This document shows positions 1,736 through 20,198 of a DNA stretch of 64,000 nucleotides, one piece after another; position 1 is the stretch's first letter; each line of letters opens with the position of its first letter. A model generated the notes under the pieces. It was given only the letters and a program-made list of their open reading frames with translations. It was not told the DNA's origin and ran no database searches. Both the position numbers and the translations under genes were made by a program. The DNA comes from Bacteroidales bacterium. Lineage in GTDB: Bacteria; Bacteroidota; Bacteroidia; Bacteroidales; VadinHA17. The DNA lies in contig JALHSP010000029.1 of NCBI GenBank assembly GCA_022865305.1, positions 62,001 to 126,000 on the forward strand, written 5' to 3'.

Positions 1736-2473
1736 CTACATGAACTTCTCTCTCTTCTGAAGGTTATAAAGAGCTGCCAGCAGACAAATAATAGTGCCTG
1801 TTATCAAAATTATTCTGTTCTTGAGAGTAATTATTGCCCAGGTAGTCTCATTTACGTCGTAAGCAGGATTAAAAGGATTCAGAAATACATTCCACTGGCT
1901 TTTCCGCAGAGGTTCCATCAGTATCATGAAAAAGAGGCCGAAGATTATCATAACTACTGCTGTCCCGCTTCCATTTCTTATAACCGTCGATAACATAAAA
2001 GCCATCATTCCAAGGAACAGGACCGGTATCATAACCTGTGCAGTCACCTCTATAAAACGGAACCTGACTATCAGCACTGAAGAGAGGAATGTAAAGACCA
2101 GCATAATAAGGAATGCAATTACATAGATCAGGATGATCCTCACAAGCCATACTTTATACCTGTAATTGGGGATGCCGAACAAGATCTCTATGGTACGCGC
2201 ATCCTGGTCATTCTGGATACCAAAAACCGAAGGATAAAAGACAAGCATAATTCCTGAAAAGAGGAAAACACCATAAAGGTCTTCCATCCTCGATACGTCG
2301 TTGGAGAAGACATAAATAACCGACAGCCCGAGATAGAATAAAACTGATCCGGCAAGAAACCATATGAATTTATTGGCAAAGATGATTCTCAGATTGTAAA
2401 GAATCATTTTCTGTACCAGGGTAAAGTAATTATATAATGTGTTGGGTTTCATTGACATGGTATTTACCTGCAT
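1736..2473 (-). CDS. ABC-2 type transporter permease
   Basis: A 245-residue membrane protein with about six hydrophobic segments (around residues 35-55, 70-85, 108-130, 140-162, 172-188 and 218-238) and the layout of ABC-2 family permeases, with a cytoplasmic N-terminus. It has no ATPase domain. The nearest ATPase is the C-terminal domain of the RND-ABC fusion encoded immediately upstream in the same direction, 158 bases away across a repeat block, so the two are the natural partners (inference). ATG codons at 2473, 2458 and 2452 are possible starts. The one at 2458 has a CAGG-type ribosome site nine bases upstream and is perhaps the better choice. Last gene of the export cassette; substrate unknown. 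Confidence 0.85.
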   Translation of the reverse strand: MQVNTMSMKPNTLYNYFTLVQKMILYNLRIIFANKFIWFLAGSVLFYLGLSVIYVFSNDVSRMEDLYGVFLFSGIMLVFYPSVFGIQNDQDARTIEILFGIPNYRYKVWLVRIILIYVIAFLIMLVFTFLSSVLIVRFRFIEVTAQVMIPVLFLGMMAFMLSTVIRNGSGTAVVMIIFGLFFMILMEPLRKSQWNVFLNPFNPAYDVNETTWAIITLKNRIILITGTIICLLAALYNLQKREKFM

Positions 2474-2631: not shown

Positions 2632-5600
2632 TTAAGCTCCTTCATGATGGTCTATATCTTTTCTTCGTAAAAGCCACAGGTAAGCGTCTTCAAGATTCGG
2701 GCTTGCATTAATTGCAGTATCCCATGGTTTATGCTCCGATATGACTCTTACCCTAATATTATCACCTTCCGACATATGATGTACAACAAGATGATTTTCG
2801 ACAAATTTTCCGAATTCTCCTGCCGGGATATTAAACTGCCACACATGCCCCTCCGCTTCTTTTGTCATATCTATGGGTTTCCCAAGAAATGACAACATTC
2901 CTTTATTAAGAACTGCGACCTGATTGCAGGAGCTTGAGATATCCTCAATAATATGTGTTGAGAAAATAACAACACGTTCCCTGCTTAGCTCTACAAGCAG
3001 ATTCCTGAATCTTATCCTTTCCCGGGGATCGAGCCCTGCCGTGGGTTCATCAACCACAAGAATCCTTGGAAGATGCAGAAGGATTTGAGCTATTCCCATC
3101 CTTTGCTTCATGCCGCCGGAATATGATCCGATCTTCTCATGCCTCCTGTCCTCCATATGGACTGCCTTCAGGACATAAGTGACTCTCTCTTCCCTTGTTT
3201 TAGAGTCTATGATATTCTTCAGCATTGCCTGGTAATGCAGGTATTCATGAGCAGTCATATTTTCATAACTGCCGAACTCCTGGGGAAGATATCCGATTAG
3301 TCCCTGCAATTCTTCCCGCTTCTTCTGAGTATCGAGTCCGTTAATCCAGACTTTGCCATAACTCTGTTCAAGAATCCCGCAGATAATCCTCATAAGCGTG
3401 GTTTTACCTGCTCCGTTTGGTCCGAGCAATCCAAACATCCCGTTTCCGATATTAAGCGATATACAACTTAAAGCCTTGAATGGCTTTTTCTTTTTCCCTA
3501 TAAGCGGAACAGCAGCCACAATTTTATATACCATTTTCCTGATCCCTTTAAATCTGCCTTCCAACCGGTAGATATCGATATTTTCTTTAGTTAATTTAAT
3601 ACCGGTTTTATAAATGAATAACCCTGTGAACCAAAGAAATCCAAGAATAAGGACTACTGCTATATTATTCCATTTAAGTTGAAACCAGATCAGGTTAAGC
3701 AAAGGTATTATCCAGAAGACTAAAAAATCGATGAGTACGGTGGTTTTTTTAAGCAATTTCTTTTTACCATTTTCTGTCATGCTGGTAAATAGTTCCCTGA
3801 ACTGCGTCCATATTCCTGAAAGGCAAAACCATGTGCCTACACTGAAAAGAAAGATCCAGAATCCACTATTGAGGTAGAAATATGTGAAATAAATTATAAA
3901 AGCAAACAATGGGATCTGCCATGCAACATTATTCATGTCTTTCCATGTTTTGTACTGTTTTTCAAGGCCCAGTCTTTTTCTTATCCTTGCGCCAGCTCTC
4001 CATTCTCTTATCCAGCGGTTTTCCCTTTCATAAATTTTAACGAGGCTCTGTACGTAAATATTAATATTTTCATCGGGAGCTATGACCGTTTCGCGGGCTT
4101 TTCTCAGACTGTTCATTATGAACCAGGTGGTTGCCGGTACAATTATCAGTGCCAGTATAGTTGTGATAAGTTTCCAAATAAATTTATCAATGTGGCTGTA
4201 AATCAGGAATATAAGCAATCCAAATGTCAGGAATTGAATTATTTTATTCTTCCATTGCAGTGAATAAAACCATTCCAGTGCATTTTCCAGACCGGAATAA
4301 AATGTTGGTATGAATATGAGTGTCAGGAGTGTGCTGAGTGTTAAACCTCCTATTACTGTAATAGCAAAAGTGGCTCCGATAGCTGATACATATTCAGCCT
4401 GTCCCATAGCCAGGGGAAACATGGCGATCACGGTGGTGGAAGCCGTTATAAGAATAGGCCTTAGTCGTGCTACGCCGGCAGTCATTAACGCCCTGGACCT
4501 TCGATTCCCTCTTTTTCTTAAAATATGTGTATAATCAATCAGTAAGATTCCGTTATTCACGACTACACCGAGAAGAATCAGAAAACCTGTCAGGGTGTTG
4601 GCATTTAACAGGGAATTATCAGTCAGTATAAGTGCAATAAGTGAACCCAGTGCTGCAAGAGGTATACTGAATAACAGAACAAAAGGAATTGTAAGTGATT
4701 CAAAAACAGCTGCAAGTATCATGTAAATCAAAAGAAATGCAATACCTATCAGTTTGTAGAATTCTTTTAATGGATTCTCTTCCTGGACAGGTTCAACTGC
4801 AATACCCGGCGGGATATTCAAACCTGCAACAATTGATTCAATTTCTGTTCTTGCTCCTTCAAGGAGGTCTTTTGAAGATTTTATCTCATCGGTAAAATTG
4901 TATGTTACTGTGATCCGTTTTTCCTGGTTTTCCCTGTGAATATTTCCCATGCCATATGATAAGACTATATTAGCAAGCTCCTGCATTTCCATAACAGCTC
5001 CATTGTTCCCGGTCACCTCCAGGCGCTTCAGATCGTCGAGGGTTTTATCTGTATTTTCTTTAAGCTCACCCTCATCACCGGCGTATTTTATTATTATATC
5101 ATAATTTTCTGTCCCCTGCTTAAAGGTAGCACCGGCAGAATATTCCCTTCCGAATGTCGACAGTGCAGATGACAAGTTGGCAAGGGTGAAATTATTCCTG
5201 CTGATATAGTCCATATCAAAAAAAAGCTGCACTTCAGGCTTATTATCCTGGACATTGATATTTACATTATCAATCGTTGAAAGATCATCAAGATACGATT
5301 TGACATCATCTGAAAGATTTTTCATCTGGTCAAAATTCTGCCCTTTAATAACTACACTTTCTCTTTTTGATCCTATTCCCAGTAAGTTCATAAAATCCAT
5401 GCCCGGATTATATGTCTCTTCGCCTCCTCCTCCAGCCGTAAATCCACCTCTTGTGGACAATTCATCCATACTTATCTCACCGGCAGAAATATTTCTGGTT
5501 TTTTCTTCAATATCATTTTTAATTTCAGGAAGAGTCCGTTTACTTTTCTTTTCCCACTCTTTTGAAAGATTTATTGTTACTGTTGCCTGTTCTTCTTCTA

Positions 5601-7386
5601 TACGACTGACGATATCTTCTTTTTCAGGAAGTGATGCCAGTCTCGATTCAATCTCTGAAACAACGGCATCTGTTTTCTCAAGTGTTGATCCGCCGGGCAT
5701 TGTCACGCTTAATCTGAAATTCGATGCTTCAACCTCCTGTGGGGAGCTTATACTTAATGCAAGGCTGATAAGAAGGGCTGCAAAGAAAACCACAAGAGTG
5801 CCTATAATAGTTGAAGCAGGTCTTCTCATGCTTGCCTTCAGCACAAGATGATATGCCTGTATAAGCCTGTTATGAATGGAAAGCTTTTTAAACATTTCTG
5901 AATTGCCTTTTGACTTCCTTGTCAGAAGGAAATAGGTGGCCATCGGTATAAGAAGCAATGCCACCGCTAGAGAGATCAGTAAAGTTGAAATTATAGAAAC
6001 ACCGATATTCTTGCCAAGAATTTTAACCAGGTAATAGTTCGAAAAAATAAAAGGGGAAAAAACTACGATCGTTGTAAGTGTAGCGGCAAATATTGCCTTC
6101 CAGACCTCGGTAGTACCCTGTTTGACTGCTGTTTTGGGATCTATGCCCTGGCCCGCCAGCCTGTAGGTGTTCTCAAGGACAACGACTGAATTGTCAACAA
6201 GCATACCTACGGCCAGAGCCATACCTACAAGAGTAAGGCTGTTTATTGAAACGTCAAAAGCATAAAAGAAATTGAATGCTGTATATACTGAGATCGGAAT
6301 AGATACAGCAATTATAGTTACAAGCCTGATGTTCCTAAGGAAGAACCAGAGTATCATAACAGCCAGCAGACCACCGGTAATTGCGAGGTTAATTATCTGA
6401 TTAATATTCTTTTCCATTATCTCGGCACTGTTGTTCTGAACAACTATTTCAATGCCTGATGATAACAGATCTTTATTGAGTGCATTTACCTGTTCAATTG
6501 CATCGTGTGAAAGCTTGATAAGATTAGCCTGGTTATCATTAACAAGGTTGATTGTAACAGATTCGAGTCCGTTAACCCTGCTGTAAGAAGTCTGTTCCTT
6601 AACACCGAAAAAGATCTCCGCAATATCGCGTAACAAAACCGGTCCATCCTGCTTTACAATTATATTTCCGATCTCTTTGACATCGGTGTATTCAGAAGTA
6701 ACATTTACAAAAAGCTCATTGCTTCCGTCGACTACCTTTCCTGCAAAAGTCTTATCTCTCCCGTTATTGTTGAGCAGATTTCTGACCTGGCCCATCGAGA
6801 TGCCTAAGGCTTTGCATGCTTTCTCATTAAGCCGTATTTCGATCGAATTTTCCTTACCTCCGTAAACCTGTACACCAGCAATTCCGTTGATATTTTCTAA
6901 TTTCGGTTTGATATCCCTGTCAGCTATGTTACGTAGCCTGTCAATCCCGCCTTCACCTCTCACCTGGAGTGACATAAACTGATTTGCCATTCCTTCAATA
7001 TCAACTTTTAAAATATTTATCAGGAATTCCTCCGGCAACGAATTCTTAACAAGATCTATTCTCTCCTGTAATTTCAGATTTGCATACTTTAGATCTGTAT
7101 TCTGATTGTAATAGATCATGATTGAACCATAACGGGAAGATATATTCGATTCGATCTTTTCAATGCCTTCAAGTGTTCCAATAGCACCTTCGACAGGAAT
7201 AACTGCCTGTGTCTCAATGTATGATGGGTCCATTTCCAGCGGAGTACCAACCTGGATTAAAAGGCCTGGCAGCAGAGTGTTTGGGAAAAGCTCTACGGCC
7301 AGTTTTTTATAGGAGACATACCCGAGCATTGTCAGCCCGATAAAGAGCATGCTGATAAGGATCCTTCTTTTTAAGATAAAGTCCAT
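2632..7386 (-). CDS. RND efflux permease fused to a polytopic linker and an ABC transporter ATPase
   Basis: A 1584-residue protein. Residues 1-1035 are a full HAE1-type RND permease: TM1 at 8-25, the TM4 motif VGMLVDNSVVVLEN (Asp398, with Asn399 where AcrB has its second Asp), and the TM10 motif VVVNNGILLID (Asn where AcrB has Lys940). Residues 1050-1265 add about six further hydrophobic segments with a basic cytoplasmic stretch near 1115-1150. Residues 1295-1584 are a complete ABC ATPase: Walker A GPNGAGKT (1323-1330), signature YSGGMKQ (1422-1428), Walker B ILVVDEP (1442-1448), switch His in STH (1476-1478). The frame is continuous through all junctions, with no stop or shift. I chose the ATG at 7386, preceded by AAGGAAG, 17 bases after the upstream RND gene. 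A longer start at 7446 would overlap that gene. The ATPase resembles the one at 16715-17608. Substrate unknown. Confidence 0.92.
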   Translation of the reverse strand: MDFILKRRILISMLFIGLTMLGYVSYKKLAVELFPNTLLPGLLIQVGTPLEMDPSYIETQAVIPVEGAIGTLEGIEKIESNISSRYGSIMIYYNQNTDLKYANLKLQERIDLVKNSLPEEFLINILKVDIEGMANQFMSLQVRGEGGIDRLRNIADRDIKPKLENINGIAGVQVYGGKENSIEIRLNEKACKALGISMGQVRNLLNNNGRDKTFAGKVVDGSNELFVNVTSEYTDVKEIGNIIVKQDGPVLLRDIAEIFFGVKEQTSYSRVNGLESVTINLVNDNQANLIKLSHDAIEQVNALNKDLLSSGIEIVVQNNSAEIMEKNINQIINLAITGGLLAVMILWFFLRNIRLVTIIAVSIPISVYTAFNFFYAFDVSINSLTLVGMALAVGMLVDNSVVVLENTYRLAGQGIDPKTAVKQGTTEVWKAIFAATLTTIVVFSPFIFSNYYLVKILGKNIGVSIISTLLISLAVALLLIPMATYFLLTRKSKGNSEMFKKLSIHNRLIQAYHLVLKASMRRPASTIIGTLVVFFAALLISLALSISSPQEVEASNFRLSVTMPGGSTLEKTDAVVSEIESRLASLPEKEDIVSRIEEEQATVTINLSKEWEKKSKRTLPEIKNDIEEKTRNISAGEISMDELSTRGGFTAGGGGEETYNPGMDFMNLLGIGSKRESVVIKGQNFDQMKNLSDDVKSYLDDLSTIDNVNINVQDNKPEVQLFFDMDYISRNNFTLANLSSALSTFGREYSAGATFKQGTENYDIIIKYAGDEGELKENTDKTLDDLKRLEVTGNNGAVMEMQELANIVLSYGMGNIHRENQEKRITVTYNFTDEIKSSKDLLEGARTEIESIVAGLNIPPGIAVEPVQEENPLKEFYKLIGIAFLLIYMILAAVFESLTIPFVLLFSIPLAALGSLIALILTDNSLLNANTLTGFLILLGVVVNNGILLIDYTHILRKRGNRRSRALMTAGVARLRPILITASTTVIAMFPLAMGQAEYVSAIGATFAITVIGGLTLSTLLTLIFIPTFYSGLENALEWFYSLQWKNKIIQFLTFGLLIFLIYSHIDKFIWKLITTILALIIVPATTWFIMNSLRKARETVIAPDENINIYVQSLVKIYERENRWIREWRAGARIRKRLGLEKQYKTWKDMNNVAWQIPLFAFIIYFTYFYLNSGFWIFLFSVGTWFCLSGIWTQFRELFTSMTENGKKKLLKKTTVLIDFLVFWIIPLLNLIWFQLKWNNIAVVLILGFLWFTGLFIYKTGIKLTKENIDIYRLEGRFKGIRKMVYKIVAAVPLIGKKKKPFKALSCISLNIGNGMFGLLGPNGAGKTTLMRIICGILEQSYGKVWINGLDTQKKREELQGLIGYLPQEFGSYENMTAHEYLHYQAMLKNIIDSKTREERVTYVLKAVHMEDRRHEKIGSYSGGMKQRMGIAQILLHLPRILVVDEPTAGLDPRERIRFRNLLVELSRERVVIFSTHIIEDISSSCNQVAVLNKGMLSFLGKPIDMTKEAEGHVWQFNIPAGEFGKFVENHLVVHHMSEGDNIRVRVISEHKPWDTAINASPNLEDAYLWLLRRKDIDHHEGA

Positions 7387-7403: not shown

Positions 7404-10400
7404 TTATACAGGATTGATAACCGGTTTTCTGGCACCGGTAAGCCATTTACTGAAACTGTCAAAGACCCAGTAAACGCATGGGATCACTACAAGTGTCAGC
7501 AGGGTGGAAGAGATTAATCCGCCAATCACTGCCAGTGCCATCGGAGCTCTCAGCGAAGCGCTTTCACCGATTCCTATTGTCAGTGGGAGCAGGGCTAAAA
7601 TGGTAGTCAGGCTTGTCATAAGAATTGGCCTGATCCTTTGGGAACCGGCCAGGATAATTGCCTCTTTTTTGTTCATCCCGGCTTCCCGCAGCTGGTTTAT
7701 GCGGTCGATAAGGATAATAGCATTATTTACAGCTATACCGCCAAGCATAATAATTCCTATGTAGGCCATCATATTAAGAGATTTACCAAGGATAAAGAAG
7801 GTAAGTATCGTACCAACTCCTGCTAACGGTATTGTAAGCATTATTACAAATGGTTGAATTACGGATTCAAACTGAGCGGCAAGCACCATAAAGACCAGAA
7901 TAAGCGATAGAATGAGGGCAAAAGATAAATTTGACATCGATTCTTTCCTTTTTAACTCCTCACCGGTAAATTCCATTTTATAATCAACCGGCAGGGCAAC
8001 AGCTTTCAGTGAAAGTCCGGCTTCTTTCACGACCTTATCAAAAGTCATATCCCCGTTTACCATCCCATTTATATAGCAGGTTCTTGCCTGGTTTCGTCTT
8101 GTGATTTCCCGGGGACTTACAATCGTCCTGATTCCAGCAAGTTCACTTAACGGCACCTTGACTGTCCCGGCAGTAATCATAAGGTCACGGAGCTGATGGA
8201 GTGAAATATCACCAAGTTTTATTGTAATATCCTTCATTTCCCCGTCTTTTTCGAAGCTACCGGCAGAGGCTCCTGACAGGTAGCTTTTTATCTGGTTAAT
8301 TACGTTATCAACGGTAACACTATAATAGCTTGTCTTAAACCTGTCGATAGCTACTTCGACTTCGGGAGTGCCTTCATCCATTGAGGTGGTTAAATTATAA
8401 AGACCGGGATTCTGTTGAAGTATCGCTTTCGATTCATTGAGAATCCTCTCCAGTTCAGTATAATCTTCACCGGATATCTCAAGTGTAAAAGGTGCTTCTG
8501 AAGTACCAAGGGATGACTGCAGAGCTGTCTCTTCCCTGGTAAAGCTTACCTCCAGGTCGGGAATTGTCTTAAGATAATTCTCAACCAGATTTATTGCATT
8601 TTCTGTTTCTGAGGCAAATTCATCAGATAGTATCACCTTCAGTGAAGCGGTATTTTCTCCTCTTATTACTGAAGTCTGGCTTAATGAAGATGTATTATCT
8701 TCTCCTGCCTGGGAATAAATTATTTTCAGTTTTCCGGCAAGCAGATCCCTTATTATACTTTCAGTTTTGGAAACAGTGCTATAAGTTCTTTCCAGGCTTG
8801 TACCTTCAGGAAGTTTTAATCCTACAGTAAATTCAGCAGATTCTGATTTAGGCATAAATTCACTTCCGAGTCCGGGTATCAGCAAAGCAGTTACTCCTAA
8901 TAGAACCACTGATAACAAAATTATCAGGACACGCTTTTCGACAATTTTTTCAAGTAATCCTGTATACCATGTAAGCCTCAGAGGAGCTGAAATATTAGTT
9001 TTCTTTTTCTTTTCCGGGAACAGCGTGGAAACCAGCATCGGAATGACCAGCATTGCAACAAAAAGTGAGGATAAGAGGGCGAAAGCAACAGTCCATGCCT
9101 GATCTTTAAACAGTTCACCGGAAGCTCCATGCAGGTAAACTATCGGCAGAAACACTACTATGGTTGTTATTGTTGATGCAGTTATTGCTCCCCCGACCTG
9201 CCCTGTTCCGGTAATAACGGCTTCTCTGAGAGGCATCCCTTCTTCACGGTTCCTGGTTATATTCTCAAGCACAACAATGGCATTGTCTACAAGCATCCCC
9301 GCACCCAGGGCAAGGCCTCCTAAGGTCATGATATTGAGTGTGAGATGATTGAAGTACATCAGGTTGAAAGTAGCAATTATTGATATAGGTATGGCAACAC
9401 TTATCACCAGAGTTGTTCCGATCCTTCTCAGGAAAATATAAAGGATAAATACTGCAAGGAGTATCCCTATTATAAGTGTATTCTTGACTTCACTGATTGC
9501 ATTGTTAATATATGTTCCCTGATCGAGCACCTTTATAAATTCGTATCCCGGTAAAGCTTTACCAAGATTTACGATAGCTTCATCAAGACTTTTTACAGCA
9601 TCAACGGTATTGAATTGTGGTTCTTTATATATGGAGAGACCAACGCAACGTTCTCCATTAATCGTAACTATATTCTCGGGATCTTTATTTGCAAAACTGA
9701 TTTTTGATACATCCCTTAAGTAAACAGGCACTCTTCCCGTTATAGTAGCAGTGGTTGAACTCTGACTAACATTTGATGTTGAAGCGGAGGCCTGTTTGAA
9801 TCCGACAATAATGTTTTCCAGATCTTCTGTGCTTTCCAGTGCACTCACTCCTTTTACTACATACTTAAGCCCCATATCCACAATAGAGCCTCCTGATACA
9901 TTTCTGTTATAATTGTTTATCTGGGCAGCAATAACATCTGAAGAGAGTCCAAAGGATTCAAGAATATACTTGTTTGTTTCAATTACTACTTCGCTTTCCT
10001 CCTTCCCGGTAAGTCGTACATCAGCGACTCCTTCAATCCTCACAAGCTCATTTCTGATATAATTTTCAGCGATTTTCCTGAGCTCATCCATATTGCTGAT
10101 ACGATCATTCTTCAGCCCCAGTATCATGACCGGAGCAGCATTGGGATCATACTGCGTGATTGTAAAGTCCTCAAGATCAGAGTTCTGGTTAAAAGAGTTC
10201 AACTCTTTCTGAAGATCAAGAAATGCTTCATCCATATCCTTGTTCCAGTCATATTCAACTGTTATGGAAGCCGAACCAGCCTGAGAAACTGATGATACCT
10301 GAATGACATCACTTTGCCTCATAGCAAGAGACTCAATCTGATCGACATAATTCTTTTCTATCTCTTCGGGAGGTTTTTCACCGGCTTTAAGTTCGATATA

Positions 10401-10538
10401 GATCTTGGGGGTATTGAGATCAGGGAACAAATCGGTTCCCAGCTTACCGAATGAGATAAATCCCAGAAGGACTATACCCAGCACCAGCATTAAAACAGTG
10501 ACGGGGTATTTTACAGCAAATCTGGCAATACTGTTCAT
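7404..10538 (-). CDS. RND family efflux transporter permease (HAE1 type)
   Basis: A 1044-residue inner-membrane protein with the classic RND layout: TM1 at 11-31, periplasmic porter loop, TM2-6 (about 353-500), TM7 near 537-555, second porter loop, TM8-12 (about 870-1025). The TM4 motif GAGMLVDNAIVVLEN keeps Asp418 with Asn419 in place of the second Asp of AcrB. TM10 has VNNAIILID where AcrB has its relay Lys. It should work as a proton-driven drug, lipid or metabolite exporter with the adaptor (gap 5 bases upstream) and the TolC-type protein. It sits next to a second RND unit, the fusion, so heteromeric RND trimers as in MdtBC are conceivable (inference). The start is supported by the usual MNSIARFAVKYPVTV-type N-terminus. 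Confidence 0.95.
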   Translation of the reverse strand: MNSIARFAVKYPVTVLMLVLGIVLLGFISFGKLGTDLFPDLNTPKIYIELKAGEKPPEEIEKNYVDQIESLAMRQSDVIQVSSVSQAGSASITVEYDWNKDMDEAFLDLQKELNSFNQNSDLEDFTITQYDPNAAPVMILGLKNDRISNMDELRKIAENYIRNELVRIEGVADVRLTGKEESEVVIETNKYILESFGLSSDVIAAQINNYNRNVSGGSIVDMGLKYVVKGVSALESTEDLENIIVGFKQASASTSNVSQSSTTATITGRVPVYLRDVSKISFANKDPENIVTINGERCVGLSIYKEPQFNTVDAVKSLDEAIVNLGKALPGYEFIKVLDQGTYINNAISEVKNTLIIGILLAVFILYIFLRRIGTTLVISVAIPISIIATFNLMYFNHLTLNIMTLGGLALGAGMLVDNAIVVLENITRNREEGMPLREAVITGTGQVGGAITASTITTIVVFLPIVYLHGASGELFKDQAWTVAFALLSSLFVAMLVIPMLVSTLFPEKKKKTNISAPLRLTWYTGLLEKIVEKRVLIILLSVVLLGVTALLIPGLGSEFMPKSESAEFTVGLKLPEGTSLERTYSTVSKTESIIRDLLAGKLKIIYSQAGEDNTSSLSQTSVIRGENTASLKVILSDEFASETENAINLVENYLKTIPDLEVSFTREETALQSSLGTSEAPFTLEISGEDYTELERILNESKAILQQNPGLYNLTTSMDEGTPEVEVAIDRFKTSYYSVTVDNVINQIKSYLSGASAGSFEKDGEMKDITIKLGDISLHQLRDLMITAGTVKVPLSELAGIRTIVSPREITRRNQARTCYINGMVNGDMTFDKVVKEAGLSLKAVALPVDYKMEFTGEELKRKESMSNLSFALILSLILVFMVLAAQFESVIQPFVIMLTIPLAGVGTILTFFILGKSLNMMAYIGIIMLGGIAVNNAIILIDRINQLREAGMNKKEAIILAGSQRIRPILMTSLTTILALLPLTIGIGESASLRAPMALAVIGGLISSTLLTLVVIPCVYWVFDSFSKWLTGARKPVINPV

Positions 10539-10543
10539 ATAGG

Positions 10544-11596
10544 TTATTTAATAATTTTAACTTTCGATCTGTTGCTGAGTGTTTCAAATCCACTTGTCAC
10601 AAGTCGTTCATTCTTTGCCAGTCCTCTTGTAATCTCAACATCAGTGGCATTTTCCAAACCGGTCTCTATTATTCTTTCCGCTGCTACTCCGCGGTCGACT
10701 ATAAATACCGTTTTCCCTCTCTGACGGGAAAGTATGATGCTTTTGGGGATCACAATCACCGAATCTTTGCGGTTTGTTATTATATCTGCCCTGACAAACA
10801 TCCCGGGTCTCAGAAGATAATCGTGATTGTCAATTGAAATATTCCCTTTAAAAGTTCTTGTATCGGCATTTATTGCAGGAGATAATTGTGTGATCTTTCC
10901 TATTATGGTATCGTCAGGTATGGTGTAATTAGTAAGCTTTACGGTCTGTCCGGGTTTTATAATTGAGATGTATTTTTCAGGCAGCTGTATATCCATGTAC
11001 ATTACCAGGTAATCCATAATTTTAACAATTGTTTTTCCGGTCTCAATTTGAGTGCCCTGGGTATAATAAGGCAAATCGACAATTACCCCGTTTATAGGTG
11101 CGGTTATCCTGGTTTTTTCCAGCTGGAGCTTTGAATTTATAACAGTAGTTTTAGCATTTTCATAATTAATTCCGGCGGTCTTCAGCTCCTTAAGGGTCAC
11201 GCCTCCTTTCTCGTAAAGCGATTCCTGTTTTCTCAGTTCACTTTCCATCAGCTCCAGGTTCAGCTGGTTAGTTTCAAGCTTGATGGAATTGACATATTCC
11301 TGGTCTTCAAGCCGGGCGATCAGGGCTCCGGTTTGTACTTTATCCCCCAGCTGCCAGAACCTCCCTGCCCGGGGATTCTTTTCAAGGAAATAGGTAGCAG
11401 TAATTTTTGACTTGAGTTCGATCTCTCCTTTTGGGAAAGCAGTCCCTGTTGTATTGACAAATTCTTCTATGGATTTAAGTCTGAGATCTTCTGCGGAAAC
11501 AGGAATTTCAACATCGGCAGCCAGGTTCTGATCACGGTTTCTGCATCCGGTAAATGCAATAATTAATGCTGCGAGAAAGGTTATATATTTTTTCAT
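10544..11596 (-). CDS. Efflux RND periplasmic adaptor (membrane fusion) lipoprotein
   Basis: A 350-residue HlyD/AcrA-family adaptor. The N-terminus is a lipoprotein signal with the lipobox FTGC (Cys18), so it is anchored by lipid rather than by a transmembrane helix. A lipoyl/barrel-sandwich half, a coiled-coil hairpin of about residues 90-145 (rich in Leu, Glu and Lys), the second lipoyl half ending in PINGVIVDLPY, a beta-barrel (VKLTNY, RPGMFVRADI) and a membrane-proximal domain follow in order. It bridges the inner-membrane pump to the TolC-type channel. Only one adaptor gene serves two RND permeases and possibly two ABC permeases in the cassette. It lies 19 bases after the TolC gene and 5 bases before the RND gene, which indicates one transcript. 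Confidence 0.93.
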   Translation of the reverse strand: MKKYITFLAALIIAFTGCRNRDQNLAADVEIPVSAEDLRLKSIEEFVNTTGTAFPKGEIELKSKITATYFLEKNPRAGRFWQLGDKVQTGALIARLEDQEYVNSIKLETNQLNLELMESELRKQESLYEKGGVTLKELKTAGINYENAKTTVINSKLQLEKTRITAPINGVIVDLPYYTQGTQIETGKTIVKIMDYLVMYMDIQLPEKYISIIKPGQTVKLTNYTIPDDTIIGKITQLSPAINADTRTFKGNISIDNHDYLLRPGMFVRADIITNRKDSVIVIPKSIILSRQRGKTVFIVDRGVAAERIIETGLENATDVEITRGLAKNERLVTSGFETLSNRSKVKIIK

Positions 11597-11615: not shown

Positions 11616-13100
11616 TTATTTATCTAATGTCATAACCGGAGAAACAGGTTCCTTTTTCTCAAAGTCGTATAGTGTCTGGATTTTAAGATTCAGCAGCTCA
11701 AGCTTGTAAGAGATCAGGGAATTTGTATAAGAAAGCTGTTTTTCTGAAAGCTGGTTCTGGTATATATTCAGATCCATTCCGGTAAGATCGCCGTTTTTAT
11801 ATTTCTCGAGATTAAGGTCATAGGTCAGCTGGGCATTTGTGACTGACTGACGCGCAATGCCGATCTGATTTTGTAAGTTAAGCAGGTTTCTGTAAACCTT
11901 CCTGATATCAAGAGTAATATTATTCTTTTCTTCCTCCAGGCTGATATTTTCTGTTTCAATAGAAGCTTCCGTGGCTTTTATTCTTGATTTTCTTTCTCCC
12001 CAATCCCATAATGGAATTGTAAATGATAATGAAACACTTTCGTTATCTGTAGGATTTTCGTATATATTTCCAAAATTTTCATTGTCACCAAAAAGCCCTA
12101 CGGAAAGGCCTAAGCTTCCCTTGAATTCGTTTAATGCCTTCGTTTGAATGAGGTCAAATTCTGAGGTTTCAATGTTTATTTCCCTTTGTCTTAATTCCAT
12201 TCTGTTGGCAAGTCCCTGGTCGATGGCAAATGCAATGTCGATCTGAACAGTATCTACCGAAATATCAGGCAAAACCATTAAGTCATCAAAAAGACTCATA
12301 CCTATCAGGATTTTGAAATCGTCCTTTGCGTTTTCCAGAGTGACCTGGTTGTTTTCAAAATCCGATTTTGTTGTTGCAAGGTTCAGTTCTGCCTGGAACA
12401 TTTCCTCGCGTGCTGAAATACCGGCATCTACCTTATTTTTAATAACTTCATAACTTTGCTGCATATTCTGGTAAGCCTGGCTGGCGATATCAAGGCTCTG
12501 TTGCTGCTGATAAACATAATAAAAAGCCTGAGTCACGAGTTTTTCAAGAGAAAGGAGCTGGATTGCATAGTTAAGCTGTGCATTCTCGAGTGCTAACTCA
12601 AGCTCTCTGAGCTGAAGTTTGGTCCTGTTATAAGTGAACAGAGGTTGATCGAGATTCAGCGAGAGCTCATTACTGAATCCTTTTGTAGTCAGATCAGTAT
12701 ATTCACTGTATGAGTCCTTATAGCCAAACCGATTAACAAGCGAGACTCTTGCATCGGTCAATACTATTGGCTGTGAGATAGTAAACAAACCAAAACTTTC
12801 AGTTGTCCTTGTCGAGTTCCATTTTGAAATCAGATCATTAAATGCCCGTATCTGGCTATAGCCAATTGGGTTGACTGACAGGGAAAAGTTTGATTTCAAT
12901 GCAGCATTCTGGGCATTCAGGTTTTCCTGGCTTCTTACGAGACTGAGCCTTACCTTTTTCATTGAGGGACTGTTCGCCTCTGCTATCTGCAGAGCCTCTT
13001 CGAGCACTAAACCTTTCTGAGAAAATGAATTTAATATGTTGAAAATAAACAGGATAAATAATAAAATGATCCTGTTTCCAATTTTAACTTTTCTTTTCAT
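11616..13100 (-). CDS. TolC family outer membrane efflux protein
   Basis: A 494-residue protein with a signal peptide (hydrophobic residues about 9-27, ending LNSFSQ). Two repeated halves of long amphipathic coiled-coil helices (about 130-250 and 350-470) are rich in Gln, Asn, Glu and Leu, and start with the typical LEEALQIAEANSPSMKK. These are hallmarks of trimeric TolC-like outer membrane channels. First gene of the five-gene block that continues with the adaptor, two RND units and an ABC-2 permease. The 158-base gap upstream carries repeats, so it may have its own promoter. Confidence 0.93.
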   Translation of the reverse strand: MKRKVKIGNRIILLFILFIFNILNSFSQKGLVLEEALQIAEANSPSMKKVRLSLVRSQENLNAQNAALKSNFSLSVNPIGYSQIRAFNDLISKWNSTRTTESFGLFTISQPIVLTDARVSLVNRFGYKDSYSEYTDLTTKGFSNELSLNLDQPLFTYNRTKLQLRELELALENAQLNYAIQLLSLEKLVTQAFYYVYQQQQSLDIASQAYQNMQQSYEVIKNKVDAGISAREEMFQAELNLATTKSDFENNQVTLENAKDDFKILIGMSLFDDLMVLPDISVDTVQIDIAFAIDQGLANRMELRQREINIETSEFDLIQTKALNEFKGSLGLSVGLFGDNENFGNIYENPTDNESVSLSFTIPLWDWGERKSRIKATEASIETENISLEEEKNNITLDIRKVYRNLLNLQNQIGIARQSVTNAQLTYDLNLEKYKNGDLTGMDLNIYQNQLSEKQLSYTNSLISYKLELLNLKIQTLYDFEKKEPVSPVMTLDK

Positions 13101-13258: not shown

Positions 13259-16200
13259 TTATTTAACTTTCACCCACTTAATCGCATCACCGATCACAAT
13301 CCTTCCAGCCGATTGATTGGTCAGCACGATCTTTGCACTGTCGGGCGAGAGATAATACTGGCCAAGATTATTCCAGCCCGGTTCCGCATTTTCATAATCA
13401 ACAGTAATTTCTTCCATGCCCTCATCGTGATAAATTTTATAATGCATATCCTGGTACGGGCTTTCTCCCTGTGGTTCAGCTCCGGGTGGAGGAGGAGCAT
13501 CCGCGCTTCCCGTACGTATCACCTCCCGGGCACCTGTCTTCCCGATAAAACAATAAATATCATAATAACCGGGTTCATCAATTGTTGTCGCCCAGACTAC
13601 CGATTTGTCGCCGGTACCGCTTCTCGTATAAACCGATGAAAGGATATATTTCCCGTAATAGGTTGACTGAACTACAGGTTGCCAGTAATCAGGGATATTA
13701 TACATCCTGATCCGCTGATAAGTTATTCCTCCTCTGCTTTTTATTCCAAGAAGTCTTTTCAGTGGGCTCTGACTTATCTGCTGACCTTTATCGAATCCAG
13801 GATCTTCATTATCCACTATTTTTTCATACGGATCATCAAACTGAGGCAATGAAGATAGTTTTTCCTCCCAGGTAAAATCTGATATTTTATTTTTTGATTT
13901 TATTATGTTATTGATCGGTTTGTTAATCTCTCCCGGGATATTCTTTGCACACAGTGTATTTATCAGCAAAGCTCTTGGTTGAGCATCGAGGATTATGCCG
14001 ATCTTTTTTGCCTCGTTCGGTCCCAGAAAAATTATTTTCGAGATATCTGCAGCTTCCATGCCACGGCCCTGCATGGATATTGTAAAACTTCCTCCAACTA
14101 CCGGACCACCCTGGAATACTCCCGTCATTTGTTGTCCTCCACCACCGGGTCCTCCAGTTCTGAATGATACATTGAAAAGTCCTGCAACAGGTTCCGGATT
14201 TGAAGCATTAAAACTAACCCTGTACCGGACCCTGTCACCGGCAACAATTTCGGCAGCCTCTAAATCGGTAATAAGAAATCCGGGTTGCTCTTTTCTATTG
14301 AACCAGTCATTAAGATAAGGATAGAATTCAAATCCGAATTCTTCATTGATATCAGCATTAAGCTTTGAAATATCTATTCTCTGAAATCTGTGTTCATCAG
14401 TATAATTAAGGAACCATTTATTAAACTCATCAATGCCGGCTTTTGATCGCAACATATTAAAAAGGTAATCACCCTTTAAAGTCAGTACAATCCTGATTGT
14501 ATCACTACCGGGATTTTTCGCGAGAAGATCCCTGAAACTGGCTGTTTTAAGGATCAGGTTTGCTCTGTCGTTATCTGATAATCCGCCCATAATTGAAAGG
14601 AATACTGCCTGCCCAGGAATGCTTACCTTTTGAAGATGCGATTCGAAAACTGCATTTATGACTGGGTATTCTGAAGAGTAAAAATTGTTCTTAAAGAAAT
14701 AGAAACTCGGACCAAGGCGATAACGGGTAGGTTCATTAAGCGGTACTCCGTTTACAAATCTGTAACTCTCCCCGCTTATAAATGTGTTTCTTACAAAATC
14801 ATTAAAAAGCCTTACCTGCAGCTCTTTATCGGTAATTACCTGGTTATTGCGGGCCATATTTCTCTTTAGCCTTGTGAATCTTTTACGGAACCCGGCGTTT
14901 TGAAGGGTTGAAAATTTTTCAGGAAGCAGGACCATTGAAGGCTGGAGTTCTGCCCTGGTCTGTGTGCTCATTTTCGGATAGGAATAGAACTGAACAGGCA
15001 CTTCAAGAATACTCAGTGTGCTGAAAGGATATTTAGTTGAAAAATTTGTCTCCAGCTCTCTCATTATACCCGAAATCAGAAAGGACAAAGTATCTTTTAG
15101 TTCAGCCAGCTCCTTTTTATAGTAATCGTTTCCCGGGAAATAGTAAGTAATGTATTTAACGGAATCAACTTTAATAGTGTCTGACTGGTATTTGCCGATA
15201 GCAAGTGTCAGCCCGGTCAGAGGTGAATCCGGCGCAAAATTATAATATCCGTTTCCGGATTTTATATTTCCCTGGGATACTGCCGTAAACCCGTCCTTTG
15301 TTTTAACACGAAGGGAAAACCGGGTGAAGTCGATTTTTATCCTCGCAGGATTAGATGGATAATAATTCAGCCCGGCAACAGGATACCAGTGAGTTTCAGG
15401 AGTCAGAAGAACATAGTTATCAGTCAGGAAAGCCTGACGTTTATTTACATTCACCATTTCTATCCTGTAAGGAGTCGTTTTAATATTATCAGAATAATCA
15501 GGATAACAAAAGGCTTCATTAATTGATCCTGAATATGAAATAACGACACTGTCACTCTGACCTGCTTCAAGAATCTTCCCGGGATCTATTTCAATAACAT
15601 GATTTATCTTGTTAAATGTCAAATCTTTCCCGTTTGATGAGACTTTTAAAACAGCCAAACCGGGATTTAGCGAGAAAACATAGCGATCCAGTCCTTCCCT
15701 GTTATCATTTATGAATTTTAAATGTGCTGAAGCCTCAAAAGCATCCCCTTTATGATTAAAATCAATGAATGCATCAGTTACGGCCGGAACATTCCTGTTC
15801 TCAAACTGCCTGTTTGTTTCAATTACCAGATTTTTTTCATCAACATTTTTTTTCCAGGCAGAAAATGTGTTGAATCCGCAAATTCCTGCACCCAGAAGAA
15901 AAATAAAAAAGAATATAACTGAGATGCCGGTATGTAATTTTGATTGAGGCAGCCGTTTGAAAAGAAGCGTTGTCGCAAGTACAAGAGCCAGTCCGAGGAA
16001 TAAATAAAGAAATCGTTGGTTTAAAATAACCCCTAGATTATCAAAGCCGATTACACCCGATTTGAAAACAGGCAATCCGAATGCCATATAGTCAAAAATG
16101 GATCCTGCCCTGTACCATAGCCAGAACATATTAAGAGCAGCAATACCCAGCAGAATAAGGAATGTTACAGCCTGATTCCTGATGACCGACATAAGCATAA

Positions 16201-16696
16201 ACGCAAGTCCGAGACTGAATATAATAGTTGGCACACAAATTATCAGCAGGTACCAGATGTATGCCATTATATCAACCGACATGATTTTTGAAATAATATT
16301 CATGAGAAGGGCGATGGATAATATTATTATATCCAGTCCCAGAAAAAGCCTCAGGATTCCCCATGTTTTACCGATGATATATTCAAAGTTTGACATGGAC
16401 CTTGTGTAAAGAACTTCGTTTGTATCGAGCTTTTTATCTCTTTTCAGGAAATCGGCAGCCAGAAATATTACAATTATTGCCTGCCCTATATTTAAAAGAT
16501 ATAAATTAATGAGAGGCACTGAGGATGAAATAGAAACCAGTGCCCATGGTTCATTACCAATCGGAGAAAAAAAACCGATATTCATAAAAGTAAAGATTAC
16601 CAGGGCTCCGATGGAAAAAAGTCTGAAGAACCAGCTCCTTCTTAATGTTTTTGCCTCATATTTTGCGACAGTTCTTATATTATGAAGAAATGCCAT
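13259..16696 (-). CDS. ABC-2 permease with degenerate M1-peptidase-like ectodomain and golvesin-like C-terminal domain
   Basis: A 1145-residue protein with three parts. Residues 1-275 carry about seven membrane segments of an ABC-2 permease (starting RTVAKYEAKTLRRSWFF; last segment about 258-277). Residues 290-800 resemble the extracytoplasmic M1-aminopeptidase portion found in Bacteroidota ABC permease/M1 proteins, but I see no HExxH zinc motif, so it is unlikely to be a peptidase. Residues 820-905 form a Gly-rich beta segment. Residues 957-1145 match the golvesin C-terminal-like fold: KIVDNEDPGFDKG, SVVWATTIDEPGYYDIYCF, and a final IVIGDAIKWVKV strand. The ABC ATPase 18 bases upstream is its partner. 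An ectodomain that binds carbohydrate or protein on the exported substrate side is plausible but unproven. Confidence 0.85.
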   Translation of the reverse strand: MAFLHNIRTVAKYEAKTLRRSWFFRLFSIGALVIFTFMNIGFFSPIGNEPWALVSISSSVPLINLYLLNIGQAIIVIFLAADFLKRDKKLDTNEVLYTRSMSNFEYIIGKTWGILRLFLGLDIIILSIALLMNIISKIMSVDIMAYIWYLLIICVPTIIFSLGLAFMLMSVIRNQAVTFLILLGIAALNMFWLWYRAGSIFDYMAFGLPVFKSGVIGFDNLGVILNQRFLYLFLGLALVLATTLLFKRLPQSKLHTGISVIFFFIFLLGAGICGFNTFSAWKKNVDEKNLVIETNRQFENRNVPAVTDAFIDFNHKGDAFEASAHLKFINDNREGLDRYVFSLNPGLAVLKVSSNGKDLTFNKINHVIEIDPGKILEAGQSDSVVISYSGSINEAFCYPDYSDNIKTTPYRIEMVNVNKRQAFLTDNYVLLTPETHWYPVAGLNYYPSNPARIKIDFTRFSLRVKTKDGFTAVSQGNIKSGNGYYNFAPDSPLTGLTLAIGKYQSDTIKVDSVKYITYYFPGNDYYKKELAELKDTLSFLISGIMRELETNFSTKYPFSTLSILEVPVQFYSYPKMSTQTRAELQPSMVLLPEKFSTLQNAGFRKRFTRLKRNMARNNQVITDKELQVRLFNDFVRNTFISGESYRFVNGVPLNEPTRYRLGPSFYFFKNNFYSSEYPVINAVFESHLQKVSIPGQAVFLSIMGGLSDNDRANLILKTASFRDLLAKNPGSDTIRIVLTLKGDYLFNMLRSKAGIDEFNKWFLNYTDEHRFQRIDISKLNADINEEFGFEFYPYLNDWFNRKEQPGFLITDLEAAEIVAGDRVRYRVSFNASNPEPVAGLFNVSFRTGGPGGGGQQMTGVFQGGPVVGGSFTISMQGRGMEAADISKIIFLGPNEAKKIGIILDAQPRALLINTLCAKNIPGEINKPINNIIKSKNKISDFTWEEKLSSLPQFDDPYEKIVDNEDPGFDKGQQISQSPLKRLLGIKSRGGITYQRIRMYNIPDYWQPVVQSTYYGKYILSSVYTRSGTGDKSVVWATTIDEPGYYDIYCFIGKTGAREVIRTGSADAPPPPGAEPQGESPYQDMHYKIYHDEGMEEITVDYENAEPGWNNLGQYYLSPDSAKIVLTNQSAGRIVIGDAIKWVKVK

Positions 16697-16714: not shown

Positions 16715-17608
16715 TTAATCAATAAGATCAGCATGCAGCTTATGCTCCATGAAAAATACATAAGCGTCTTCAATATTCGGGATGATACTGACTGAATTAA
16801 ACTCAGGAACCTCATCCGAAACAACCTGCACTTCCCAGCCTGTTTCAACAGGAATTGTGGAAATTACATCATAGTGTTCTTTTGCCTTTTCATATTCATA
16901 CGGTGTGAGGTGGAGTTTAAAGACATGGCCTTCAGCATGTTTTATTAGGTTTTCAGGCGGACCTGAAAAAACCAGTTCTCCCCTGTTAAGCAAGGCCATA
17001 CCCTGACATGTAGATGAAATATCACCCACAATATGTGTCGAAAGGATAATAGTCACATCGTTCTGACTTAATTGAGAAAGTATATTTCTGAACCTTATCC
17101 TTTCATCAGGATCGAGCCCTGTGGTGGGTTCATCGACAACAATTATCCTTGGTTTTCCGATCAGTGCCTGTGCAATTCCCAGCCGGCGTTTCATGCCACC
17201 CGATAACCTGTTTGCCTGACGGTCGCGAGCCTCAAGAAGCCCTACCTGATCTAGCAGGCGGTCAACCTCAGACAGCCTTTCTTTTTTGTTTCTCAACCCG
17301 GCAAGCGATCCGGAATAATCCAGGAATTCCCATGTCTTTAGTGATGTGAAAAACCTGAAATCCTGAGGCAGGTAACCAAGCATTTTCCGGAGTTCTTTCC
17401 TGTGTTTCTGGATATCCTTTCCGTCAATAAAAACTGCACCCGAGGTGGGTTTCATCAGTGTAACAATAATCCTCATAAGGCTTGATTTGCCTGCACCATT
17501 AGGCCCAAGAAGTCCAAACATTCCTGTTCCGAATTCAAGGTTGATATCTTTTAAAGCGTGATTGCCGTTAGAATATATCATGTTAAGTCCCTGAATTTCA
17601 ATTTTCAT
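16715..17608 (-). CDS. ABC transporter ATP-binding protein
   Basis: A 297-residue cytoplasmic ATPase: Walker A GPNGAGKS (35-42), Q-loop near LPQDF (80-84), signature LSGGMKR (135-141), Walker B IIVVDEP (155-161), switch His in LSTH. The C-terminal extension ends with an NIEDAYVFF motif, like the NLEDAYLWL of the ATPase domain in the RND-ABC fusion, so the two ATPases look like paralogues that energise the two ABC-2 permeases of the cassette. It is the first gene of the minus-strand set, with a promoter candidate about 70 bases upstream of the start. Substrate unknown. Confidence 0.93.
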   Translation of the reverse strand: MKIEIQGLNMIYSNGNHALKDINLEFGTGMFGLLGPNGAGKSSLMRIIVTLMKPTSGAVFIDGKDIQKHRKELRKMLGYLPQDFRFFTSLKTWEFLDYSGSLAGLRNKKERLSEVDRLLDQVGLLEARDRQANRLSGGMKRRLGIAQALIGKPRIIVVDEPTTGLDPDERIRFRNILSQLSQNDVTIILSTHIVGDISSTCQGMALLNRGELVFSGPPENLIKHAEGHVFKLHLTPYEYEKAKEHYDVISTIPVETGWEVQVVSDEVPEFNSVSIIPNIEDAYVFFMEHKLHADLID

Positions 17609-17891: not shown

Positions 17892-19145
17892 GTGGTCTAT
17901 AAAACAAACAAACGAAAGATCATTAACGATCCTGTTTACGGATTCATAAACATTCCCGGAGATTTTATTTTTGATCTTATTGAGCACCCGTGGTTTCAGA
18001 GATTGAGGCACATAAAACAGCTTGGGCTGACCAGTTTCGTTTATCCGGGGGCTAACCACAGCAGGTTTCAGCATGGATTGGGAGCCATGCATCTTATGGA
18101 TATGGCAATCCGGACACTTAGGAGCAAAGGAGTGAAGATTTCCGAACAGGAAGAAGAAGCCGCCCTTATTGCGATTCTTCTTCACGATTCCGGACATGGT
18201 CCTTTTTCCCACGCTCTTGAGAATTCAATAATCAGTGGTATCTCTCATGAAGATCTTTCCCTTCTTCTGATGAGAAAACTGAACGAAACCTATGCCGGGA
18301 AACTTGATCTTGCCATTGAGATTTTCAAAGGAACGTACACGAGAAGATTTCTTCATGAACTTGTTGCCGGGCAGACCGATATGGACAGACTTGATTATTT
18401 ACGGAGGGACAGCTTTTTTACCGGGGTAATTGAAGGTTCTGTAGGATCTGACAGGATAATCAGGATGATAAATGTGGTTAACGATAGCCTGGTAATTGAT
18501 GAAAAAGGGATTTATTCCCTTGAAAAATTCCATATTGCCAGGCGACTTATGTATTGGCAGGTTTACATGCATAAGACTGTTCTTTCATCAGAGAGCCTGC
18601 TGGTTAAAGTACTTAAACGTGCCAAGGAACTTGCGACAGCGGGCGCTAATCTTTATTCGACGCCTGCACTCAGGTTTTTTCTTTATAATAAGATCGGTCC
18701 TGACGACCTTTTCCGGGAAGGAAATTTTACTCCCGGTCTGATAGCTTCAAATTTTACAAGGCTCGACGATAATGATATACTTGTTTCAGCTAAATACTGG
18801 GCGGATCATGATGATATTGTTCTCTCGGATTTATCGGGCAGGCTTATGAGAAGAGATCTCCTTGCCATTGAGCTTCAAAATGATCCGTTTCCTCAAAACA
18901 GAGTCAAAAAACTGAGTGCTCTGGCAGGGGATCTGATGAAGATTGATCCGGGGCTGACAGATTATTATGTATTCACTAACAGCATATCAAATCCGGCATT
19001 TACTCCTGCCGTTCTCGAGGTTAAAATATTGCTTAAGTCCGGAAAAACTGCTGACATCTCATCTGTCTCAGATATGTTTGATCACAGGTTTCTGTCGGAG
19101 AGAATAACCAAATACTTTCTTTGCTATCCCAAAGAATGCAAATAA
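17892..19145 (+). CDS. HD-domain phosphohydrolase (dGTPase/SAMHD1-like)
   Basis: A 417-residue protein with the metal motif of HD hydrolases: His in SRFQHGLG (residue 61), HD in LLHDSGHGPFSH (98-99) and the distal Asp in TDMDRLDYLRRD (163-168). The opening pattern NDPVYGFI...HPWFQRLRHIKQLG is typical of the SAMHD1-like dNTP triphosphohydrolase group, so a dNTPase or nucleotide phosphohydrolase role is likely (family knowledge); the exact substrate cannot be read. The only plausible start is GTG at 17892, since an in-frame stop lies just upstream. It is followed after 15 bases by lpxD, a common Bacteroidota arrangement, and may be co-transcribed with the lipid A genes. Confidence 0.88.
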   Translation: MVYKTNKRKIINDPVYGFINIPGDFIFDLIEHPWFQRLRHIKQLGLTSFVYPGANHSRFQHGLGAMHLMDMAIRTLRSKGVKISEQEEEAALIAILLHDSGHGPFSHALENSIISGISHEDLSLLLMRKLNETYAGKLDLAIEIFKGTYTRRFLHELVAGQTDMDRLDYLRRDSFFTGVIEGSVGSDRIIRMINVVNDSLVIDEKGIYSLEKFHIARRLMYWQVYMHKTVLSSESLLVKVLKRAKELATAGANLYSTPALRFFLYNKIGPDDLFREGNFTPGLIASNFTRLDDNDILVSAKYWADHDDIVLSDLSGRLMRRDLLAIELQNDPFPQNRVKKLSALAGDLMKIDPGLTDYYVFTNSISNPAFTPAVLEVKILLKSGKTADISSVSDMFDHRFLSERITKYFLCYPKECK

Positions 19146-19160
19146 CTAATTATATATACT

Positions 19161-20198
19161 ATGGAATTTACTGCCGCAATAATCGCCGGGTTCCTGAAAG
19201 GAGAAATAGAAGGAAATCCTGAAACTGTAGTTTATACCGTTGCCAAAATTGAAGAAGGCCAGGAAGGAGCACTATCTTTCCTTGCCAATCCGAAATACGA
19301 ACAGTATTTATATACCACCAGGTCCTCTGTGGTTCTGGTCAATAAAAGCTTTGTACCTTCAACAAGTGTAAAAGTTACACTTATTCGGGTCGATGATGCA
19401 TATGAAGCATTTGCTTCCCTTCTTCGTCTGGTCGATCAGTCCCGTCCAAGAAAAAAAGGTATACATCCGACAGCCGTTATTGAACCGACTGCAAAGATCG
19501 GCTCAGACGTCTACATCGGGCCATATTCTTATATTGGTGAAAATTGCTATCTCGGAAACGGTTGTGCAATTTATCCGCATGTTTATGTGGGAGATAATAC
19601 TCGTATAGGGAAGAACAGTACTTTAAATCCCGGTGTGAAAATATACCATGATTGTGTTCTTGGCGAAAATTGCACCATTCATGCAGGTACTGTTATCGGC
19701 AGCGATGGATTCGGATTTGCCCCGCAGTCCGAAACTGAATTTATGAAAATACCTCAAATCGGTAATGTTGTGATCGAAGACAACGTAGAGATCGGAGCAA
19801 ATGTTGCTATCGACAGAGCAACCATGGGATCAACAATAATCCGCAGAGGTGTAAAGCTGGATAATCTCATTCAGATCGGCCATAATGTTGAGGTAGGCGA
19901 AAATACTGTTATAGCCGGACAGACAGGTATTGCCGGATCGACTAAAATCGGAAAAAACTGTATGTTTGGTGGCCAGGTTGGTATCGTGGGTCATCTTAAG
20001 ATTGCAGACGGGACGAAAATCGGTGCCCAGTCAGGTGTCCCCGGAGATATAAAGAAAGAAAATTCAATTCTGACAGGTTCTCCAGCAATTGAACACAGGG
20101 ATTTTCTCAGATCTTCAATAATCTTCAGGAAGTTGCCCGATCTTAAGATGAAAGTTGATAACCTTGAAAAGGATCTGGTATCATTGAAAGGGAAGTGA
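19161..20198 (+). CDS. lpxD: UDP-3-O-(3-hydroxyacyl)glucosamine N-acyltransferase
   Basis: 345 residues: an N-terminal uridine-binding domain (about 1-100, with [16 protein letters not shown]) followed by a long left-handed beta-helix of hexapeptide repeats (about 105-310) and a C-terminal helix ([15 protein letters not shown]). The catalytic His lies in [14 protein letters not shown] near residue 240. It adds the N-linked hydroxyacyl chain in the third step of lipid A synthesis, using acyl-ACP in the cytoplasm. First of three lipid A genes in a row. Length and order agree with other Bacteroidota. Confidence 0.97.

Follow-up and report, generated by a model that had tools for sequence, protein, structure and literature searches.

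A conserved seven-gene operon of Bacteroidales with an RND permease fused to an ABC ATPase: a candidate hybrid ABC–RND–TolC exporter

A single reading frame in the genome of a Bacteroidales bacterium (GCA_022865305.1) encodes a full RND permease and a full ABC ATPase. The frame lies on contig JALHSP010000029.1, of which we analysed a stretch of 64 000 nucleotides (positions 62 001 to 126 000; hereafter the window), and it is part of a unit of seven genes on the same strand, which run from 17608 down to 1736 in the order ATPase A, permease A, TolC, adaptor, RND1, fusion and permease B (Table 1). We read this operon as one hybrid ABC–RND–TolC envelope exporter, in which the two motors would be covalently tied and substrate would be handed over from one to the other, and we give this reading a probability of about 0.5.

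Table 1. Genes of the operon and parts of the RND2–ABC fusion (coordinates within the window; residues counted in the open frame)
Feature	Coordinates	Strand	Details
Putative ABC-2 permease B	1736..2473	minus	245 a.a., six TM helices; model, Foldseek, hydropathy
RND2–ABC fusion gene	2632..7386	minus	1584 a.a. from Met21; frame open to 7446
NBD-B, remainder of the ATPase	2635..3486	minus	residues 1321-1604; Walker A at 3400-3423
Predicted membrane insert inside the ATPase	3487..4020	minus	residues 1143-1320; four TM helices here
Predicted first strand and A-loop of the ATPase	4021..4071	minus	residues 1126-1142; Tyr1139 in 79/79
Two extra TM helices after the RND domain	4072..4281	minus	residues 1056-1125; hydropathy, model helices
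RND2 permease domain	4282..7383	minus	residues 22-1055; Pfam ACR_tran; nearest solved chain MdtB
RND1 permease	7404..10538	minus	1044 a.a.
Periplasmic adaptor (membrane fusion protein)	10544..11596	minus	TIGR01730 180.5 bits, cut-off 94.9
TolC-type outer-membrane channel	11616..13100	minus	Pfam OEP
ABC-2 permease A	13259..16696	minus	1145 a.a.; degenerate M1-peptidase-like and golvesin-C domains
Free ATPase A (NBD-A)	16715..17608	minus	297 a.a.

The minus-strand frame of the fusion is uninterrupted from 7446 to 2632 (1604 a.a.). Met21 is its likely start, as the stop codon of RND1 lies 17 bases before it (7386), a stretch AAGGAAG is found ahead of it, and the resulting length fits that of the relatives (complete fusion frames range from 1566 to 1622 a.a.). 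The Pfam family ACR_tran covers residues 22-1051 (542 bits; profile positions 3-1018 of 1021) and ABC_tran covers residues 1335-1470 (97.5 bits). The RND part has D418-N419 in TM4 and N964-N965 in TM10, and the ATPase part has a Walker A motif (1342-1349), a signature (1442-1446), a Walker B motif (1462-1467) and the switch His1498; D418, the Walker A lysine, Glu1467 and His1498 are each found in all 79 complete fusions, the window included. A first-pass annotation, made from the letters of the DNA, had described RND motifs followed by an intact Walker A, signature, Walker B and switch His in one frame of 1584 codons, and the Pfam matches and motif positions agree with it. Its view of an RND joined to an intact ABC ATPase beside an ABC-2-like permease also stands, except that it overlooked the second ATPase, the second permease and the second RND of the operon, as well as the membrane insert that splits the fused ATPase.

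The same fusion is found in many relatives, a group of environmental bacteria. A query with the linker was positive in 20 out of 41 genomes, its own included (18 of the 25 genus members, and members of two further families), and did not find the linker in the other seven genus members. With a linker profile, 52 of the 393 genomes in the order sample were positive, and 44 of these (own genome counted) have a frame of at least 1500 a.a.; the remaining eight have shorter frames, two of which (G035 and G306) run off their contigs. Five out of 395 genomes were positive in the class sample (two outside the order) and six out of 395 in the phylum sample (two outside the class). As the fusion has been kept across families, orders and classes, evolution has tied the RND and the ABC parts together. 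Most of the named relatives (the best 80 of 142) are titled Bacteroidales or other Bacteroidota metagenome bins, and the fusion is also carried by the isolates Sunxiuqinia indica, S. dokdonensis, Mangrovibacterium marinum, Gaoshiqia sediminis, Prolixibacter bellariivorans and P. denitrificans. Among 5000 plasmid records listed, none had one place covering 80% of the fusion. A role in anti-phage defence was considered and rejected, as the fusion and ATPase A had only partial matches, in the ATPase region, and the permeases had none.

The first-pass annotation had raised an assembly error, or homologues always encoded as separate genes, as what would speak against a genuine fusion; neither was seen in the 44 genomes (out of 52) and the cultured isolates that carry it. 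An artefact of assembly or a frameshift has, in our judgement, a negligible probability. Out of the best 80 named loci (of 142) 59 have a complete, uninterrupted frame, cultured isolates included, 16 are cut by contig ends and five (L068, L079, L085, L088 and L125) are broken; the broken frames could be taken as a sign of such errors, but all five breaks lie within RND2 and none at the RND/ABC junction. These five loci come from metagenome bins, and their RND2 frames may reflect sequencing error or decay.

The gene order around the fusion is constant. We counted each gene only at loci with room on the contig, in one set of named loci (the best 80 of 142) and one set of further loci. Permease B follows the fusion at 64 out of 64 named and 19 out of 19 further loci (83 out of 83), so the domain order and the neighbouring ABC-2-like permease that the first-pass annotation proposed to look for recur together. 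RND1 directly precedes the fusion at 55 of 59 named and 19 of 19 further loci, and at the four exceptions (L068, L079, L088 and L125) the RND2 frame is broken and RND1 lies ahead of the fragment. The adaptor is present at 53/53 named and 19/19 further loci and TolC at 49/49 named and 18/18 further loci. For the remaining two genes, counted in the second set only, the figures are 18/18 (permease A) and 17/17 (ATPase A). All seven genes were found on the stretch at 18 of 20 loci in one set and at eight of 20 in another, the rest being cut short apart from L058, a locus included because of its ATPase that has no such operon. In G038 the operon can be followed from ATPase A through RND1 up to a contig end that lies ahead of the linker position, so the fusion is not seen there. 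When the flanking genes of eleven sampled genomes were compared (for G884 just the downstream side, for G129 just the upstream side), no family was found in more than two genomes, and none was common with the window. Since the seven genes are constant and their flanks are not shared, the unit consists of these seven genes. Their co-occurrence is explained by inheritance as an operon alone, which counts against the hybrid reading. In the window, a divergent HD-domain protein and an LpxD-type acyltransferase (17892-20198) lie beyond ATPase A and are not conserved there in the sampled genomes; a link to lipid A, suggested by the LpxD-type gene, was dropped for this reason. The stretch between the fusion and permease B (2474-2631) contains inverted-repeat-like sequences by eye and is possibly a repeat element.

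By sequence and model, the fused ATPase is a split domain, with its first strand and A-loop tyrosine before the membrane insert and the remainder after it. A motif, LVKIY, is found about 200 residues ahead of Walker A in all of the 20 fusions aligned first, and Val1136, Lys1137 and Tyr1139 are invariant in the 79 complete fusions. The corresponding tyrosine of ATPase A precedes Walker A by a median of 23 residues, and in the fusions the distance is 131-247 residues (median 203; 78 sequences). When a profile of the first strand of ATPase A was placed on the fusions, its tyrosine fell exactly on the fusion tyrosine in 78 out of 78 (one of the 79 fusions is without the motif pattern). In the reverse test, the best window of the fusion profile was correctly placed in 12 of 53 other ABC proteins (15 of 68 controls were dropped for length or a missing N-terminus), against a mean of 3.2 and a maximum of 17 with shuffled columns, and in nine of 28 NBD-A sequences; this result appears mildly positive, and is not decisive alone. 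In a model of the linker plus ATPase, in which the arrangement of domains is uncertain (pTM 0.53), residues 1130-1137 form a strand and no other strand precedes residue 1329; the partner of this strand would be in the ATPase core. The model of the fused ATPase matches ABC ATPases by Foldseek (NosF, LptB and others).

TM helices flank the A-loop of NBD-B on both sides. By a crude hydropathy measure the insert has four TM helices in 62 out of 78 sequences, three in 12, five in two and two in two. With an odd number the ATPase core would not end up on the cytoplasmic side, and we therefore ascribe the 14 odd counts to limits of the method. The two inserts with two TM helices (L173 and L176) keep both parts of the ATPase, as expected if the insert begins and finishes in the cytoplasm. 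An ATPase with a membrane insert separating the A-loop from the core would be an unusual fold to solve.

Both ATPases of the operon have the complete catalytic motifs of an ABC exporter. They are 45% identical over 273 residues, and the Walker A lysine, Q-loop glutamine, Walker B glutamate and switch histidine are invariant in 79 NBD-B and 28 NBD-A sequences (the signature is [YF]SGGMKQR in NBD-B and LSGGMKRR in NBD-A). Permease B looks like an ABC-2 permease by its model (pLDDT 82.8, pTM 0.79), which matches PmtCD, NosY and ABCG2 with Foldseek probabilities of 0.99-1.00 among the top rows, although no E-value is under 0.001 (the best is 0.0036); the first-pass annotation had called the gene so, and the fold points the same way. 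Its sequence resemblance is weak: the protein encoded in the window matches neither Pfam nor NCBIfam at E 0.001, among 71 members ABC2_membrane_3 matches two, ABC2_membrane_2 one and ThrE two, and the family profile had no match among PDB sequences up to E 1. A helix at residues 90-99, inside a highly conserved stretch, is placed like an ABC-2 coupling helix. This placement bears on another explanation, that NBD-B acts on the RND itself, with ATP gating or assisting the RND cycle and permease B serving as an anchor; the attachment of NBD-B to the RND C-terminus through the TM helices around its A-loop would suit such a role, but a coupling helix in permease B argues against it, and we regard it as very improbable.

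Permease A combines several domains. At E up to 0.01, all 28 members have golvesin-C, 13 have ABC2_membrane_2 and eight have Peptidase_M1, and the family profile matches M1 aminopeptidases weakly in the PDB (best E 0.00036) and a xanthan lyase via the golvesin part. The HExxH pattern is absent in 27 of the 28 members, the window included (the one match is in L180, at residue 885), so in these 27 the M1-like part lacks the zinc motif of M1 aminopeptidases. LolCDE, LptB2FG and MacB are ATP-driven systems that could serve as models for a further explanation, in which the ABC part would not transport its substrate through the inner membrane. It would instead use ATP to pull a lipid, or a molecule linked to one, out of the periplasmic leaflet and push it into the RND/TolC path. 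The missing HExxH would fit an M1-like/golvesin region that binds rather than cuts, and the NBD profile matches lipid-moving ABCA proteins and LptB; against this, the likeness to ABCA and LptB is general, and both permeases resemble ABC-2 types and not those of MacB or LptFG. We consider lipid extraction improbable.

The two RNDs have partly kept the proton relay. The TM4 aspartate and TM11 arginine are found in 79 out of 79 sequences of both RND1 and RND2. RND2, read against an alignment with MdtB, matches the full ACR_tran family but lacks the MdtB-type aspartate pair and TM10 lysine: the second TM4 aspartate of MdtB is replaced by asparagine in 76 of 79 sequences, and the TM10 lysine position is asparagine in 78 of 79. 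In RND1 the second TM4 position is asparagine in 69 and aspartate in nine of 79, and the TM10 position is asparagine (67) or serine (12). Judged from these residues, RND2 is likely to be driven by protons. Set against six other RNDs from the genome, a small control set, RND1 and RND2 split off together (0.93). They are only 29% identical, which is below the ∼50% of known heteromeric RND pairs reported in PMC10872679 and expected of an MdtBC-like heteromeric pump, so a mixed trimer of the two calls for caution. MdtBC is active as B2C (PMC7015380, PMC12802153), and HAE-1 pumps are rarely heterotrimers (PMC8277102). Two other RND-like frames of the genome (G000:C82:77404-81066, 1295 a.a., and G000:C1:157016-160165, 1101 a.a.) match the RND profile in separate pieces.

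The ATPases have relatives outside this operon. We built a tree from 27 NBD-A and 27 NBD-B sequences, one of 28 and five of 32, respectively, having been dropped as a motif pattern failed, together with 68 other ABC sequences. NBD-B forms a clade (1.0), and the NBD-A clade (0.99) takes in two of the 68 others, namely ATPase A of the operon in G292 and that of the operon in G038. One further ATPase, L029, groups with NBD-A and NBD-B in a clade separate from the rest of the ABC sequences examined (0.99; 100 with IQ-TREE on the subset) and is the sole outside sequence in it. FastTree places L029 with NBD-B (0.73) and IQ-TREE, on a subset of 55, with NBD-A (35); given this disagreement, a duplication inside the system is without support from the trees.

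The gene for L029 lies in locus L257 (G019:C150, 155-4635) beside a gene for a 1194-a.a. protein with two ABC-2 permease halves and an M1 aminopeptidase part (with HEIGH). ABC/M1 genes of this type are also found on plasmids of Hymenobacter, Spirosoma, Granulicella and others. When 41 relatives were searched for kin of the L257 permease, L257 itself was the only match. We compared five of six ABC/M1 proteins with the permeases of the operon (all but the one from Sphingomonas, which is split). Permease A gave values of 93.8% for the second permease half, 64.3% for the first half and 83.8% for the M1 part, and permease B gave 10.4% for the first half and 0.2% for the second. By these comparisons the ATPases and permease A appear clearly related to the ABC/M1 systems, and a relationship of permease B is unproven. 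The systems of L257 and of a Hymenobacter swuensis plasmid resemble the operon in that L029 falls into the NBD-A/NBD-B clade and permease A matches the second half and the M1 part; the L257 type differs from it in having one ATPase, both permease halves in one chain, an HExxH motif and no fused RND. On a plasmid of Sphingomonas sp. R1 (pR1a; L263, 1999-9457) an unfused ABC/M1 pair has TolC and RND genes next to it, encoded on the opposite strand.

In another explanation the operon would encode two independent exporters with different substrates and no handover, the fusion setting dosage or membrane targeting only. One adaptor and one TolC would suffice for the RND part alone, the ABC/M1 systems of Hymenobacter, Granulicella and Spirosoma are without an RND among the annotated neighbours, and L257 is without a gene matching the RND profiles of the operon. 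However, no split version of the fusion was seen: of the 52 positive genomes in the order sample 44 have long fusions, and what the other eight have are shorter frames. The linker query is blind to a split form without the linker, but permease A was found in three out of 247 genomes of the class sample, each of them a fusion carrier; the neighbours on the Sphingomonas plasmid, though on the other strand, also place TolC and RND genes beside an ABC/M1 gene. We consider two separate exporters a rather unlikely alternative.

For the hybrid exporter we propose the following route. Permease A and NBD-A would pair with permease B and NBD-B as an ABC-2 exporter, held against the RND1/RND2 pump because NBD-B sits in the RND2 chain. 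The ATP-powered ABC part would bring substrate out of the cytoplasm or the inner membrane and onto the periplasmic side. There the large periplasmic part of permease A would deliver it to the RND porter, for export from the cell by the proton-driven RND pump together with the adaptor and TolC. The adaptor and outer-membrane channel that a tripartite efflux system needs are both in the operon. We infer the A/B pairing, the shared RND1/RND2 trimer, the contact between the parts and the handover of substrate, and the M1-like part of permease A presumably faces the periplasm.

The first-pass annotation had noted a puzzle of stoichiometry, RND trimers against ABC dimers, which presupposes that two copies of the fused ATPase pair with each other. 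The puzzle would disappear with an A/B heterodimer, for which the operon supplies a free ATPase closely related to the fused one. Given the second ATPase and second permease the ABC exporter may be heterodimeric, and given the second RND the trimer may be mixed. If RND1 and RND2 are arranged as in the B2C form of MdtBC, there would be one fused ATPase per trimer. A complex of an ABC A/B heterodimer covalently linked to a trimer of two RND1 and one RND2, exporting stepwise with ATP and then protons, is a tentative proposal that we hold to be doubtful in this full detail. If true, one RND2 per trimer would mean exactly one NBD-B, pairing with one free NBD-A; a single chain would be shared by an ATP-driven motor and a proton-driven one, and the ATPase, interrupted by its own membrane domain, would be a motor anchored on either side of its A-loop.

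The component families are known from other exporters. MdtABC and MuxABC (HAE-1 pumps with two RND genes) share with the operon an RND permease, one adaptor and tandem RND genes, and MdtB is the best solved relative of RND2 by sequence; the operon differs in the ABC ATPase and six extra TM helices on RND2, in the 29% identity of its RNDs and in three ABC genes. MacAB-TolC also has an ATP-driven inner-membrane part with an adaptor and TolC, whereas in the operon the permeases are ABC-2-like, one ATPase is on the RND chain and an RND pair is present. The ABC-2 exporters NosFY, PmtCD and ABCG2 share the fold of permease B and a likeness to the fused ATPase; the operon, in contrast, has two different ATPases and permeases, one ATPase being tied to an RND and split by an insert. 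No description of the RND–ABC fusion or of the seven-gene unit was found in the open-access literature, and no membrane insert inside an ATPase was met there, though it was not a search term itself; the covalent RND–ABC link, the unit and the insert are therefore apparently new. RND and ABC pumps are usually treated as separate machines with separate energy sources, and the operon makes a direct handover from the inner membrane to a trans-envelope pump testable on a single complex. Cultured carriers are available for this (Prolixibacter, Sunxiuqinia, Mangrovibacterium and Gaoshiqia). A contig labelled candidate division KSB1 (L127) also carries the fusion, perhaps due to transfer or misbinning.
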